Assembly: GCF_014635665.1 (NCBI RefSeq)
Contig: NZ_BMDG01000013.1
Span: 62,001 to 126,000 of the forward strand
Direction of reading: 5' to 3'
Source: Isoptericola cucumis
Lineage (GTDB): Bacteria > Actinomycetota > Actinomycetes > Actinomycetales > Cellulomonadaceae
DNA: 64,000 nt
The notes below the pieces were generated by a model. The model had not been told where the DNA came from. It did no database searches and saw only the letters and a list, made by a program, of their open reading frames with translations. Positions within the stretch are counted from its first letter, which is position 1. The number at the start of each line of letters is the position of its first letter. A program made the translations under genes and the position numbers. This document shows, one piece after another, positions 12,026 through 36,643 of this stretch.

Positions 12026-12071
12026 TCGTCCGCTGACCGGCGGGACGTCACGTCCGCCGCGTCAGCCGCTC

Positions 12072-12111
12072 GGAGGCCCGCCGCTCGCCACGTCGCGAGC
12101 GGCGGGCCTCC
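12072..12111. terminator. Bidirectional terminator hairpin between hupB and the VOC gene
   Basis: A perfect 17-bp stem (12072-12088 pairs with 12095-12111; the left arm starts GGAGGCCC and ends GCTCGC) closes a 6-base CACGTC loop. It lies 46 bases after the hupB stop and 21 bases beyond the convergent VOC stop. No T-run follows, which is usual in this GC range. Confidence 0.85.
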
Positions 12112-12132
12112 GTCGTCCCCGGGCCCGGCGCG

Positions 12133-13888: not shown

Positions 13889-14866
13889 GGCCGGGGCCAG
13901 CCGCGGCCCCGCCCACCACGTCCACCTCGCCCGCCGGCGCCGGCCCGGACGACGGGGACGCGCCGGCCGCTCGTCGCCACTCGGACGGCGTGCGGCCGGT
14001 GTGGCGCCGGAACGCGCGGCCGAAGGCCGTGTCCGAGCCGTGTCCGAGCCGTAGCCGAGCTGCCGCGCGACCGTCGCGACGGGGAGGTCTCCCGCCGTCA
14101 GCAGGCAACGGGCGTGGGCGACCCGCACCGCCGCGAGGTAGCGGCCGGGCGTCTGCCCGGTCGCCGCGCGGAACCGGGCGGCGAAGCCGGACCGGGAGGC
14201 GAGCGCGACCCGCGCCAGCTCGTCGACGGTCCAGTCCCGGCCCGGGTCGGCGTGGATCGCGGCGACGGCGCTCGCCAGGCCCGGGTCCTCCCGCTGCATG
14301 AGCCAGCGCGCAGGCGCGCAGCCGCGGGCGTACCAGGCGCTGATCGCCATCGACGCGACGAGCGTGACCACCCGGTCCCCGAGCACGCTGCGCGGGGTCC
14401 GGTAGTCCTCCACGAGCGTCCGGAACATCGTCGCGGCCGTCGGCTCGGACTGCGGGAGCTCGGTGAGGAGCACGTGGTCCGGCAGGGTGCCCGCGCCCGT
14501 GCCCGCGCCGACGGGCGCGACCTGGACGCACCGGACGGCCGAGTCCGAGAGGGCGTGCAGCTCGAACCGGGGCCCGTGCGGCAGGAACAGGAAGTCGCCC
14601 GGCGCCAGGTCGACGACCTCGCCCACGCCGCGCACCCGCACCAGGCCGCAGGTGACGAGCAGCAGGGCCGGGTCGCCCGTCGCGTGCTCGACCCACTCGC
14701 CCGCCGCGAGCTCGTGCCGCGAGCGCGCCACGAACCGCCACTGCAGGCCGGCCAGCACGCGGTCCAGCTCTGCCGCCGCCGCTTCCGCCGACGTGGCCGC
14801 GGCGTCGGACGAGACCCCGCAGGCTCCCGCGCTACCGTCGTCGGTCCGGGAATGCGTCGCGCTCAT
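13857..14866 (-). pseudogene. AraC family regulator inactivated by an 11-bp tandem duplication
   Basis: A cupin-sensing AraC regulator split over two frames. Frame one, from ATG 14866, encodes the cupin-like N-domain (VRVRGVGEVVDLAPGDFLFL) and most of the DNA-binding domain (DWTVDELARVALASRSGFAA; FRAATGQTPGRYLAAVRVAHAR). It reaches LGYGSDTA and then goes out of frame. The other frame resumes at SDTAFGRAFRRHTGRTPSEWRR, the second helix-turn-helix and AraC signature end, and stops at 13857. The cause is a perfect direct repeat of 11 bases at 14029-14050; removing one copy restores a protein of about 330 residues. The ATG overlaps the stop of the Schlafen-like gene (ATGA). The unshifted frame runs on into sequence antisense to the MFS gene, so a chimeric product could still be made. 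Confidence 0.85.
14029..14050. repeat. Perfect 11-bp tandem duplication inside araC
   Basis: GTGTCCGAGCC occurs at 14029-14039 and again at 14040-14050, followed by a diverged partial third copy (GTAGCCGAG). Since 11 is not a multiple of three, the duplication shifts the reading frame within the second helix-turn-helix of the AraC regulator. Slipped-strand replication could both create and remove it. Confidence 0.9.
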
Positions 14867-16257
14867 GCCACATGCCAGGTGGCACGGGGGTCGCGCGCCG
14901 AAGCGCCCTCCCATCGGACCAGTCCGGCGTCCCGCAGCGCTCGGAGGTGTTTGACGACGGTCGGCCGGGTGATCCCGACGATCTCCTCGATCTGGCCCGT
15001 TCCCAGCGGGCGACCGGCCCGCCGGAGAGCGTCAAGGACGCCGAGTGCGCCCCGTGGCAGAGTCGAACGCACGTCCTCCGGGACGGCGTCGGCTGCCGCG
15101 AGCACGAGGCGCACGGATCCGCTCGTCTGGAGGTAGATCGGGTCCGTGAGGCCACGCTGGCGCATCTGCGCAAAGATGCGCTTGATGCCCTCACCGAGCT
15201 CTTGCGCGATTCTCAGGTCGGCACAGACACGGGCGATGCGCGGGTTGCGGGCATGGCGCGAGATCGTCTCGGGATGCGCGGGGTTCGCAAGCCCGGGGAA
15301 CCTGCCGGGGCTCGAGATCTCGACACGGTCCGGGAAGATCTCGACCCGCACGTGGTCCCCGACCGAGCTGTAGGAGCGGTGCAGCACCGCGTTGACCAGC
15401 CCTTCGAGCCACGCGTCGCGCGGCACGATCGGGCTCGGTTCGAATCGACCGCTCGCGGCCAGCGACCGCCGCCTGGGAACGAGACGGTCCATCGTTGAGG
15501 CAGCGGACATGATCTGCGCGGGGATGGATCCTTCGCACCGTATGTCTGCGTCCTCGTCGAGGGTGAGCTCGGCGCCGGTGCCGCGCTCGACGCCCGCGTA
15601 GCGCAGCACGCGCACGTGGGCGTGCGGGTAGAGATCTTGGGGATGCTCGGCGAACAGCAGGTACGCGGCCGTGGTGAGACGGCCGTCTCGTGTGAGGAGG
15701 CTCCGTGCCCGGAGCATCGAATGCGGGTCCGAGGCCCCCATGTCCGCGGCGTAAGGGGCGACCTGTGCGGGATCCAGGTCGCCGAGCTCACGGTCTGCGG
15801 GCGTGCCGTCGTAGGGCGCGCTCCCACGGTCGTACTCGAGCTCTTGTCGTTGGGCGAACCCCAGACGCCGGGACTCGTCACCGACTCGGAGGTAGCACTC
15901 GCCCGATGCGGTCTCATGGACCTGCTCGCCGGGCTCGACCCGGAAGACGAGCAGTGCGGCGCCCTCGGCCGTCGTTCGTTCCTCGACACGGTGCCTGACG
16001 ACCGGCCGGGTGAAATCGTGTGCGGCCTGCCGCAGCTCGTTGATCCGCTGTGCGGAGATGTCGTCGGCCCGGCCGGAGTGGATGCCGACGAGCACGGTGC
16101 CGCCCTCGGCATTGGCGAACGCGACGAGAGGGACGGCGAGGTCTCGTGCCTTGATCCTGCCCGACTTCCGTTCGTACCACTGCCCCTCAGGCATCTGCGC
16201 GAGGCGCGCGAGGGGATCCTCGGCGGTCAAGGCGTCGTCGACCTCGCTGGTGTACAT
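14863..16257 (-). CDS. Schlafen/AlbA_2-domain ATP-binding regulator with C-terminal winged helix
   Basis: A 464-residue protein of the COG2865 type. The N-terminal AlbA_2 (Schlafen-like) domain covers about residues 20-150 (WYERKSGRI, VAFANAEGGTVLVGI, LVFRVEPGEQVHETASGECYLRVGDESRRL). The middle is the HATPase_c_4-like part, with EGLVNAVLHRSYSSVGDHVRVEIFPDRVEISSPG split around residue 300 (LVNAVLHRSY, VEISSPGRFPG). The C-terminus (about 400-460) is a winged helix: GALGVLDALRRAGRPLGTGQ, IEEIVGITRPTVVKHLRALR. Relatives are often called ATP-dependent DNA-binding regulators; no target is known. The ATG directly abuts a 31-bp palindrome, implying autoregulation and possibly leaderless translation. 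Codon use is less GC-skewed than in the neighbours, suggesting acquisition. Confidence 0.85.
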   Translation of the reverse strand: MYTSEVDDALTAEDPLARLAQMPEGQWYERKSGRIKARDLAVPLVAFANAEGGTVLVGIHSGRADDISAQRINELRQAAHDFTRPVVRHRVEERTTAEGAALLVFRVEPGEQVHETASGECYLRVGDESRRLGFAQRQELEYDRGSAPYDGTPADRELGDLDPAQVAPYAADMGASDPHSMLRARSLLTRDGRLTTAAYLLFAEHPQDLYPHAHVRVLRYAGVERGTGAELTLDEDADIRCEGSIPAQIMSAASTMDRLVPRRRSLAASGRFEPSPIVPRDAWLEGLVNAVLHRSYSSVGDHVRVEIFPDRVEISSPGRFPGLANPAHPETISRHARNPRIARVCADLRIAQELGEGIKRIFAQMRQRGLTDPIYLQTSGSVRLVLAAADAVPEDVRSTLPRGALGVLDALRRAGRPLGTGQIEEIVGITRPTVVKHLRALRDAGLVRWEGASARDPRATWHVA

Positions 16258-16288
16258 GGAAGTACTCTAAAATCTTTAGAGTACTTCC
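16258..16288. promoter_or_regulatory. Perfect 14-3-14 palindrome abutting the start codon of the Schlafen-type gene
   Basis: GGAAGTACTCTAAA (16258-16271), ATC (16272-16274) and TTTAGAGTACTTCC (16275-16288) form a perfect palindrome. It fills nearly the whole 38-base gap between two same-strand genes and touches the ATG at 16257. It is A/T-rich in a very GC-rich region. It could be an operator, an RNA hairpin, or both. Confidence 0.9.
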
Positions 16289-16293
16289 GACAA
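16264..16293 (-). promoter_or_regulatory. Predicted leaderless promoter of the Schlafen-type gene
   Basis: On the minus strand TTGTCG (16293-16288) is followed by an 18-base spacer and TAGAGT (16269-16264), then 6 bases and the ATG. This is the -35/-10 geometry and TANNNT-N6-start arrangement of actinobacterial leaderless genes. No usable Shine-Dalgarno is present. The palindrome covers the -10 and the spacer. Confidence 0.6.
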
Positions 16294-16295
16294 GG

Positions 16296-19082
16296 TCAGA
16301 GGTCGCCCTTGCGCTCCAGGTACCGCATCGCGACCCAGCCGATGGGTACGCGGCCCCAGTAGGTGACGACGCGGTACAGCATCGTCACGGAGAACGCGAT
16401 GGACGCCGGGATGCCGGCGGCGGTGAGGCCGGCGGTGAGCGCGCCCTCGACGCCGCCCAGGCCGCCGGGCGTCGGCACCAGGGCGCCCAGGGCGTTGCCG
16501 ACCAGGTAGATCACCGCGACGTCGACGAGGTTGAGCGACCGGCCGAACGCCGCCAGCGCCGCGTCGAAGGCCAGCACGTACCCGAGCGTCATCACGACGT
16601 TCCCGCCGAGCCCCAGCGCCAGGCGCGCCGGCTGGCCGAGCATCTGCGACAGCCGCGGCCACACCTGCTCCAGGGTGGGGCGGGCCTTCTCCCAGGCCCA
16701 GCGCCGGACGGCGGGCACGAGCAGCGTCGCGACGACCGCCAGCGCGACGCCCGTGATGGCGAGCAGCACCGTCGTCGACGGCAGCTCGATGAGGCCGCCG
16801 GAACCCGTGAGGATCGACAGGACCACCAGCAGCAGCACGGTGACGACAAACTGCGACACCTGCACCAGGGCGACCGTCGCGACCGCCATCGGCATGGCCA
16901 CGCCGCGCCGCGTCAGCATGCGCAGGTTGAGCGCCGCGGGACCGATCCCGGCGGGCGCGGCGAGGGCCACGAACGACCCGGCCATCTGCGTGAGCGTGGC
17001 CCGCCACAACGGCAGCTTCTCCGGGGAGAACGCGGAGAACGTGAGGGCCGCGCCGAACCAGGTGACCGCCCCGAACGCGAACGACGCCGCCACCCACCAG
17101 GGGTTCGCCGCCGCGATCGACGCCGCGATCTCCTCGAAGTTCATCGTCGTGACGATCACGGCGACGGCGACGATCGTCAGCGTCACCATGATGATCGTGC
17201 GGGCGCCGAACCGGGTGATGTTCTGCGGCTGGACGTCCGCCTGCGGCAGCCGCGCCACCAGGGCCTCGCGGAGCTCGTCGAGCAGGCCCTTGGCCCGCCG
17301 CACCTCGACCCGGGTGGCCGGCGGGAGCGCGATCGTCTGCAGCAGCGGCCCGATCGCGGCGATGTCCTCGTCCGGCAGCGCGCGCACGGCGGAGGCGAGC
17401 GCCCGCTCCGCCCCGACGCGCAGGGCGAGCAGCGCGAGCATCTGCGTGAGGTCGAGGCGGCGGGACAGCACGGACGACGCGATCTCGCCCAGCTCCCACC
17501 CCGTGAGCCACACGTGCGGGTCGCCGTGCGCGTCGTGGTGCACCAGCAGCACGTCGGGGGTCAGCGCGTGGTGCGTGAGCCCGGCCTCGTGCGCGCGCCG
17601 CAGCTGCTCCCACGCCTGGGCGAGGATGGCGTCGCCGCGCTCGCCGGCGAGCAGCTCGTCGGACGCGTCGCGCAGGGACACCGCGTCGGCGGCGTGCTCC
17701 TGCACCATGACGACCGAGTCGTCGGCGATACCGATGCCCTCGAGGCGCGGGGTGCGCACGCCCGCGGCCGTGGCGGCGTACGACAGCAGGGCGATGCGCT
17801 CGGCCGCGGCCTTGAGGGAGATCGCGGTGCGCCCCTCGATGCCGCGCAGCCGCAGGGCCCGCCAGGCGCGGGTGAGCGTGCCGATGACGTGCCGGTCGCC
17901 GTCGAGCACGACCACGTCCCGGCGTCGTCCGTCGCCCGTGAACATGGCGTACACGCGGTTGTCGCCGGAGCGCGTGAGGGCGAGGGCGGCCGGGTCGGCG
18001 GGGGAGTCGTCGGGGAGGTCGTCCGCGTGGCCCGGGGCGTCCTCGTCGCCGGTGCGCCCGAGGGCGTCCATCGTCTCCCCGGCGCGGGCGTCGTCGGCCG
18101 GGTCGACCGGGGTCACCAGCCCGCCCGCGGTGTCGTAGGAGGCGATGGTGTCGACGTGGACCGGGCCCGAGAACCCGCCGGCCCCGGCGTCCTCGTCGTC
18201 CGTGGCGGCGGCGTCGTCCTCGTCGGGCACGTGGTCGGCGGCGGCGACGGCGGTGGCCGAGTCGCGCACCCGCACCAGCAGGGTCGGCCGGAAGCCGGCC
18301 CGGCGGACGGCGGAGACGAGGTCGGCGCCGTAGGCCCGCTCGCTGCGGACCCCGGACACGTACTGGACGGTCTGGCCGGCCAGGCGGCCCAGCAGCAGCG
18401 CGACCAGGATCCCCGGCAGGGAGACCTGCCCGGTGATGAGCACGATGAACAGGGCCAGGTACAGCACGTTCCACGACCAGCGCACCGTGCGGCGGCGGGT
18501 GCGCGGGCCCGCGGTGGTGAGCAGCCCGGCGATCGCCGCGACGTAGCCGGGGATCGTCAGCAGCCACTCCCCGTCGCGGCGCACCGACAGGCCGCGGATC
18601 AGCTCGTCGCTGCCGAAGGCGGAGATCATCACGACCGTCAGGACGCCCAGCAGCAGGCCCAGCGCCGCGCCGCAGATGGACTCGACGACCTGCCGGCCCA
18701 GGCGGCGCACGCCGAGCTCCACGAGCACGGCCACCGGGACGAACAGGGTGACCATGCCCTCCAGCACCGCGACCGGGATGAACAGGATGCGCGCCAGGAG
18801 GGTGTTGAAGGTCTGCACGTCCTGCGTGACGCCCTCGGTGGTGGCGTGCGCGACCACGGACAGCACCAGCACCAGCGCGATCCCGAGCGCGCTGGTCACC
18901 ATCCCGAGCATGTCGGAGGGGTGCCGCACGCGCGGCTCCGGGGTGTCGACGACGCGCACGAGGTCGTGGTCGGCGTCGCGGCCCGGGACGTCCCGTCCCA
19001 GCAGGGCCTGCAGCGGGCCTGTCGGGGGAGCCGGGTCCTGCGACGGATCGCGCGAGGGACCCGCGGCGCTCGCTCCGGACAT
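16296..19082 (-). CDS. Flippase-like (lysyl-PG synthase TM family) membrane protein with embedded pseudokinase domain
   Basis: A 928-residue membrane protein in three parts. Part one (about 60-230) has several transmembrane helices, starting MLGMVTSALGIALVLVLSVV. Part two (about 235-620) is cytosolic: an acidic Asp/Ala linker and a protein-kinase-like region. In it the HRDxxxxN loop reads HHALTPDVLL and DFG reads TGWELG, so the catalytic aspartates are missing. Part three (about 630-925) is the YbhN/MprF-like lysylphosphatidylglycerol synthase TM domain, with ITRFGARTIIMVTLTI and the motif GALVPTPGGLGGVEGALTAG. The protein has no aminoacyl-transfer domain, so it is a flippase-type member and not an MprF synthase. 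The lipid or polymer substrate is unknown. Its start codon lies beside direct repeats shared with the peptide ABC operon promoter region. Confidence 0.8.
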   Translation of the reverse strand: MSGASAAGPSRDPSQDPAPPTGPLQALLGRDVPGRDADHDLVRVVDTPEPRVRHPSDMLGMVTSALGIALVLVLSVVAHATTEGVTQDVQTFNTLLARILFIPVAVLEGMVTLFVPVAVLVELGVRRLGRQVVESICGAALGLLLGVLTVVMISAFGSDELIRGLSVRRDGEWLLTIPGYVAAIAGLLTTAGPRTRRRTVRWSWNVLYLALFIVLITGQVSLPGILVALLLGRLAGQTVQYVSGVRSERAYGADLVSAVRRAGFRPTLLVRVRDSATAVAAADHVPDEDDAAATDDEDAGAGGFSGPVHVDTIASYDTAGGLVTPVDPADDARAGETMDALGRTGDEDAPGHADDLPDDSPADPAALALTRSGDNRVYAMFTGDGRRRDVVVLDGDRHVIGTLTRAWRALRLRGIEGRTAISLKAAAERIALLSYAATAAGVRTPRLEGIGIADDSVVMVQEHAADAVSLRDASDELLAGERGDAILAQAWEQLRRAHEAGLTHHALTPDVLLVHHDAHGDPHVWLTGWELGEIASSVLSRRLDLTQMLALLALRVGAERALASAVRALPDEDIAAIGPLLQTIALPPATRVEVRRAKGLLDELREALVARLPQADVQPQNITRFGARTIIMVTLTIVAVAVIVTTMNFEEIAASIAAANPWWVAASFAFGAVTWFGAALTFSAFSPEKLPLWRATLTQMAGSFVALAAPAGIGPAALNLRMLTRRGVAMPMAVATVALVQVSQFVVTVLLLVVLSILTGSGGLIELPSTTVLLAITGVALAVVATLLVPAVRRWAWEKARPTLEQVWPRLSQMLGQPARLALGLGGNVVMTLGYVLAFDAALAAFGRSLNLVDVAVIYLVGNALGALVPTPGGLGGVEGALTAGLTAAGIPASIAFSVTMLYRVVTYWGRVPIGWVAMRYLERKGDL

Positions 19083-35972: not shown

Positions 35973-35988
35973 GGAACATTGATGTTCC
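35973..35988. promoter_or_regulatory. Third 7-2-7 palindrome nearer to tetR
   Basis: GGAACAT-TG-ATGTTCC is a perfect palindrome, 45 bases before the tetR ATG. It has the same 16-base geometry as the two exporter-side sites but a different sequence. It may be an autoregulatory site or belong to another regulator. Confidence 0.55.
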
Positions 35989-36604: not shown

Positions 36605-36643
36605 GACGCCGCCCGCCCCGGGCAGCCCGGGGCGGGCGGCGTC
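36605..36643. terminator. Bidirectional terminator between tetR and the subtilase
   Basis: A perfect 18-bp, all-G/C-rich stem: 36605-36622 pairs with 36626-36643 around the loop CAG, and the arm begins GACGCCGCCC. It lies between convergent genes, 24 bases from the subtilase stop. Confidence 0.85.

Follow-up and report, generated by a model that had tools for sequence, protein, structure and literature searches.

The locus raises the question of what a perfect palindrome does directly before the start codon of a Schlafen-type gene. The window, i.e., the whole 64-kb stretch of DNA that was analysed, carries at positions 16258–16288 a 31-bp perfect palindrome with two 14-bp arms and a 3-nt centre (GGAAGTACTCTAAA-ATC-TTTAGAGTACTTCC); both arms are exact and the element adjoins the start codon at 16257 on the minus strand, just as the initial annotation had described it. 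With up to three mismatches allowed, its sequence occurs once in the window and not at all in 100 shuffles, and no 31-base stretches of the window are richer in AT than those at the palindrome, with near-equal ones near 35978, 51896 and 52333. In 64 kb of DNA an arm of 14 bp is no rarity by itself (it is the longest arm in 4 of 20 Markov shuffles of the window, and the window itself holds two hairpins longer than the palindrome, both G+C-rich), and the case against chance therefore rests on orthologue conservation, which is the decisive evidence and confirms the palindrome as a genuine site. The two G+C-rich hairpins, both perfect and possibly terminators, have 19- and 18-bp arms and are located at 36605–36643 and 12071–12112.

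The gene (14863–16257, minus strand) encodes a protein of 464 amino acids in which three domains follow one another, all on the minus strand: SLFN_AlbA_2 (residues 24–132, positions 15862–16188; PF04326, E 2.3e-12), HATPase_c_4 (residues 300–386, positions 15100–15360; PF13749, E 1.5e-20) and a C-terminal winged helix (residues about 404–450, positions 14908–15048), which is ArsR/IclR-like according to Pfam (HTH_5, PF01022, E 5.1e-9; HTH_IclR, E 2e-7) and bears out the earlier statement that the protein carries a winged helix of its own. The order of the domains is that of the known Schlafen AlbA_2 – HATPase – wHTH proteins, from which the window gene differs in standing alone, with what would be its own operator. 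The protein is also homologous to PHROG 12156, labelled “DNA helicase” (residues 18–463, E 3.7e-118), and to PDB 3lmm, an uncharacterized protein (residues 39–380, E 3.2e-10), but differs from them in having no Pfam helicase domain beyond HATPase_c_4; the Pfam description of the latter mentions a putative RecG C-terminus, and no helicase motor domain was found in the Pfam scan of the window homologue. In some annotations the phage homologues (L042, 3992–5428; L043, 3926–5356) are named (RecG-like) DNA helicase. PADLOC returned matches to pAgo (E 2.8e-13) and to two SIR2-type Argonaute-associated profiles (about 1e-6), as well as matches of Csa3/CARF profiles to the winged helix, none of which was taken as naming a system.

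As to the function of the gene, a passage on SLFN13 gives Glu205, Glu210 and Asp248 as its catalytic carboxylates (PMC5862951), and bacterial Schlafens are the subject of the Taboada preprint, as cited in a passage of PMC12839542. In the alignment, inspected by eye, E24 is nearly invariant and position 29 is E or D in 32 of 32 rows; this spacing of 5 equals that between Glu205 and Glu210 in the SLFN13 passage, while a third acid is not clearly conserved. E24 and E/D29 are thus likely counterparts of two of the SLFN13 carboxylates, the third being uncertain. On an Azotobacter plasmid, the genes brxC and pglX have a relative with 30% identity between them. The most economical picture of the gene’s function would be that of a potentially toxic nuclease that represses its own gene, perhaps with a defence-type role.

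Conservation of the palindrome was assessed in 36 homologous loci, the window’s included. Left out of this set were L035 (start unclear), L075 (N-terminus missing), L076 (36% identity), L078 (the same locus as L074), L022 and L024–L029 (27–33% identity), eight faecal phage records and duplicate phage records. A dyad of the form TACTCTAA-N5-TTAGAGTA, or a variant of it, precedes the gene in 31/36 loci, with 6 or more of the 9 inner pairs formed; in the window this 21-bp core occupies positions 16263–16283, and TACTGTAA is another version of the site. Four of the 31 dyads have exactly 6 of 9 inner pairs, and in the five misses no chance-like dyad goes beyond 4–5. The distance from the centre of the dyad to the start is 16 nt in 27 loci, 17 nt in two, 22 nt in one and 44 nt in L070; these values lean towards the pattern because the start codons, all in frame, were picked by hand. 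Both halves of all 31 dyads keep the CT (AG) of the half-site without exception. Changes in the two halves are coordinated: offset 6, which may be C, G or A, is complementary in 29/31 (19.6 expected from shuffles, with 0/2000 as high), and the G/G type at this offset requires four changes on the protein tree (33 rows) in all bootstraps, one further locus being A/A. The outer arms behave differently, with offsets 11–15 paired in 16, 14, 16, 13 and 11 of 31 dyads as against 12.8, 9.7, 15.2, 8.5 and 10.9 in shuffles. The expectation that the palindrome would recur upstream of orthologues was thus borne out, and of the 31-bp site originally proposed it is the 21-bp core that is conserved, whereas its full extent is particular to the window and some other loci. 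The dyad is absent at the start in L036, L037, L060, L063 and L077, each of which has half-site repeats further upstream; in L036, L037 and L060 these are TACTTGAA-type direct repeats with a spacing of about 12 bp. Phages Squirty and Nymphadora have a layout similar to that of the loci with the dyad at the start.

The right half of the dyad contains the –10 of a presumed leaderless promoter. In the window the putative –10 hexamer TAGAGT (16264–16269, minus strand) ends 6 nt before the ATG, and TANNNT is found before the gene in 33/36 loci, at –12 in 28 and at –13 in five, in agreement with the leaderless position assigned to this hexamer at the outset. Of the 36 loci, one has a Shine-Dalgarno (SD)-like sequence, namely L070, in which the start codon is displaced downstream by 28 nt. 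All five loci in which the dyad is missing at the start keep TANNNT, at –12 in L036, L060 and L077 and at –13 in L037 and L063, so that promoter duty, which would fall to the right half, is separate from operator duty, which would involve both halves. By contrast, the TTGTCG (16288–16293, minus strand) put forward as a –35 element by the initial annotation is not supported, as no conserved hexamer occupies that place in orthologues; many loci have ACTC there, which amounts to part of a third half-site, roughly one turn of the helix upstream. A sigma70 consensus scan of positions 15900–16700 gave no match, a result that is uninformative for a leaderless actinobacterial promoter.

Taken together, these features make it very probable that the palindrome serves as operator in the autorepression of a self-contained Schlafen-type gene. 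The gene product, as a dimer, would most likely read both inverted half-sites TACTCTAA, 5 nt apart, by means of its C-terminal winged helices, and since the right half-site contains the –10 hexamer of the presumed leaderless promoter, the bound dimer would shut out RNA polymerase. Expression would thus be kept low until a signal, perhaps acting via the ATPase-like domain, releases the dimer. The gene moves between species jointly with its operator, as one unit, and both occur in temperate phages. Autorepressed winged-helix genes of the ArsR/MarR type have an operator placed over the –10. The locus resembles them in having a dyad over the presumed promoter and in encoding a winged helix, and differs in that the regulator would be the whole putative effector protein, in its leaderless start and in the extra arrays that flank part of the loci. 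The abstracts and passages of the literature surveyed describe no operator for the Schlafen-type family. A family suspected of an anti-phage RNase function would hence gain a concrete operator sequence with natural symmetric variants, which makes the regulation and induction of the gene directly testable.

Who reads the site was approached through its distribution. Allowing up to three mismatches, the core occurs once each in 10 of 14 orthologue genomes, before the gene in nine and elsewhere in G416, and a reversed control pattern occurs at nine places in the same 14 genomes. With at most one mismatch, 396 genomes of the order contain 16 places in 15 genomes, compared with two for the control; of these near-exact places, 13 are before an orthologue, two just behind one (the G739 and G774 orthologues) and one stands alone in G798, with no relative within the 3 kb fetched. 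The near-exact core is absent from 10 of the 24 orthologue genomes. The pattern AGTACTCT-N9-AGAGTACT, run against the whole collection, proved too strict, with 16 stretches of which none comes from a record titled actinobacterium. In viral contigs the core dyad was found in 66 stretches with two patterns and a relative is encoded within one of them (the Squirty contig), so that the dyad cannot by itself serve as a marker there. In a Mantel comparison over 29 loci, half-site distance is not correlated with recognition-helix distance (r 0.14, p 0.11), nor is it after correction for the rest of the protein (r 0.006, p 0.49); the winged helix as a whole gives r 0.28 and a partial value of 0.15. 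The operator is well supported as a site, and its binder is inferred to be the gene’s own protein. Of the interpretation proposed at the outset, the sequences support a dyad with the features of an operator, which covers a –10 of leaderless type, stays nearly equally far from the start of orthologous genes and is largely confined to the locus of a gene with a C-terminal winged helix; the –35 box and the 31-bp extent are not supported.

This lack of correlation would suit a regulator of the host, governing a larger regulon, that reads the site in place of the gene’s own protein. Such a reader is very unlikely, as the near-exact copies are almost confined to places beside the gene (15/16 in 396 genomes), a distribution that fits a self-specific site and not a host regulon, and as the gene is found with similar sites in phages and in unrelated hosts. 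The palindrome could act, alternatively, as RNA, the 14-bp arms pairing into a hairpin in the leader that controls translation, an option raised with the original description and favoured by the position of the dyad next to the start codon. It is extremely improbable, because the dyad contains the presumed –10 hexamer; in addition, the outer arms are weakly paired (11–16 of 31, against 8.5–15.2 in shuffles), G/T accounts for 4/34 unpaired inner cells and an SD-like sequence is absent in 35/36 loci.

The Schlafen-type gene has a patchy distribution. A family-level protein search at E 1e-20 gave 12 of 150 genomes, the window’s own included, a count that takes in relatives at 29–33% identity; orthologues were found in 9 of 394 genomes of the class and in 24 of 396 genomes of the order, the own genome being counted in both. 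Over 31 aligned full-length rows the identity to the window protein is 46–67%. Copies in another family of the class (f27) are 65% identical to it and those in its own family 63–67%; being equally close to both, the window protein points to a spread of the gene by horizontal transfer. A first viral search with the window protein as single query retrieved no relative; Mycobacterium phage Squirty and Gordonia phage Nymphadora carry, next to the integrase, genes that are 54–56% identical to the window protein, and phage relatives of Squirty and Nymphadora match in two or three pieces around the gene. The viral contig L101, at 43% identity, keeps the same core dyad in a similar layout. No neighbour recurs in more than 3 of the 23 neighbourhoods compared: one large ORF is common to three loci of one genus, besides a few pairs and nothing wider; long neighbouring ORFs in such G+C-rich DNA are partly shadow ORFs, and three neighbours were run against Pfam and PADLOC. 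L023, L063 and L074/L078 have broken reading frames or a central deletion, and the gene is therefore also being lost.

Half-sites are not limited to the dyad. Using a counting pattern chosen after the sequences had been seen, matches in the 36 loci number 62 at 0–40 bp upstream, 44 at 40–240 bp, 2 at 240–440 bp and 4 at 440–640 bp; downstream they number 46 at 0–300 bp, 3 at 300–600 bp and 4 at 600–900 bp, with 13 in the 49,428 nt inside the genes. Downstream flanks were measured from the first stop in L023, L063 and L074, where the frames are broken and downstream results are unreliable, and are short in L037 (151 bp) and L071 (225 bp). At least three matches within 300 bp after the stop occur in 10/36 loci, and fewer in the remaining 26. 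In several loci the arrays consist of two direct half-sites, a spacer and two inverted ones, and a locus may use its own variant repeatedly, such as TACTTGAA in L036, TACTATAA in L058 and CTGTATCA in L077. In L057, L058, L059 and L070 duplicated flanks add half-sites on both sides, the repeats themselves containing arrays.

Direct repeats (E ≤1e-4, comparing –600 to 0 with the stop to +900) bracket the gene in 14/36 loci, with lengths of 20 to 208 bp, as against 1/79 neighbouring control ORFs (18 bp), which are partly shadow ORFs and unmatched for recent acquisition; the shortest repeats, those of L069 and L038, are weak cases. Exact words of at least 23 bp are shared between the two flanks (from 450 to 32 bp upstream of the start, and the 320 bp that follow the stop) in 11/36 loci, while 500 cross-locus pairs never exceed 15 bp. 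By eye, the repeats of L019, L032 and L033 are host DNA, those of L056 and L062 resemble interspersed inverted-repeat elements, and those of L065 may be paralogous gene ends. Alignment with empty sites gives an overlap between the two flanks of 23 and 24 bp for L019 (G077 and G105), of 61 bp (G323, G303), 64 bp (G341) and 60 bp (G262) for L033, and of 83 and 85 bp for L032 (G323 and G303), i.e., all three loci have a target-site duplication relative to an empty site. The gene and its operator were therefore inserted there as a short unit; an empty site could also arise by deletion between direct repeats, which would not, however, create the duplication. The gene behaves in some lineages at least, and in part demonstrably, as a one-gene insertion unit, and the flanking arrays together with the empty sites raise the question of how such a unit, without a recognisable transposase, inserts at different places. 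At the site occupied in G739, G806 has the same neighbours and a solo array without the gene, and a solo palindrome is present in G798, where the left neighbour is the same; by eye, G671 and G772 have neither. In the three congeneric genomes G739, G798 and G806 (L108, L109, L203), half-site palindromes are duplicated or solo, with the gene next to them or missing.

These arrangements suggest a further reading, which overlaps with autorepression, namely that the half-sites chiefly serve as recognition ends, bound on both flanks by a Schlafen-type protein that helps to move its own gene, the operator doubling as one of the sites. It would account for the clustering of half-sites on both flanks, including arrays behind the gene, where autorepression has no need of them, for the direct repeats around 14 loci, for the overlaps at empty sites and for the solo array and solo palindrome. 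The duplications at the tested sites, however, range from 23 to about 85 bp, unlike those of a classical transposase; ends and lengths vary among the loci examined, with neither defined ends nor a fixed duplication length. Neither a transposase nor a recombinase domain of a known kind is among the Pfam matches of the window protein, arrays are absent from the host DNA duplicated in L019 and L033, and the window copy itself has neither arrays nor direct repeats, its longest shared word being 10 nt, at chance level. Direct repeats are lacking in 22/36 loci and 26/36 have fewer than three half-site matches behind the gene, some of the repeats look like interspersed elements or paralogous gene ends, and both the post hoc half-site pattern and the unmatched control ORFs weaken the comparison. 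Recognition ends are on balance an unlikely main role of the half-sites. It would similarly be rather improbable that the locus represents a novel one-gene mobile element, in which a protein with AlbA_2, ATPase and winged-helix domains recognises coordinately evolving arrays at both ends, one of them the operator, mobilises the unit with long variable target duplications and leaves solo arrays behind.

A gene flanked by palindromes, with solo REP palindromes elsewhere, is characteristic of the REP-associated tyrosine transposases. The Schlafen-type gene is like them in its flanking palindromes and in the solo palindromes found elsewhere, and differs from REP systems in having no transposase domain among its Pfam matches, mostly one core site per genome and long direct duplications.

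Returning to the probable autorepressor operator, its design is found more widely among distant homologues, although not universally. Nine distant plasmid or viral loci were scored (L044, L103, L104 and L214–L219), and in three of them (L044, L104 and L219) a significant palindrome lies close to a candidate start; L103 was scored at three inner start codons, and two dyads with 8 of 9 pairs sit further upstream. No palindrome was found near the start of L220, which lies inside a BREX operon. Homologues at about 27–29% identity (L025, L028) have, by eye, TACTCTTAA repeats upstream. In the window itself, a downstream AraC-type ORF (14010–14866, minus strand) begins, by eye, on the stop codon of the Schlafen-type gene with an ATGA overlap, and its frame, judged by eye and from the ORF list, appears to be shifted by an 11-bp tandem duplication at 14030–14051.
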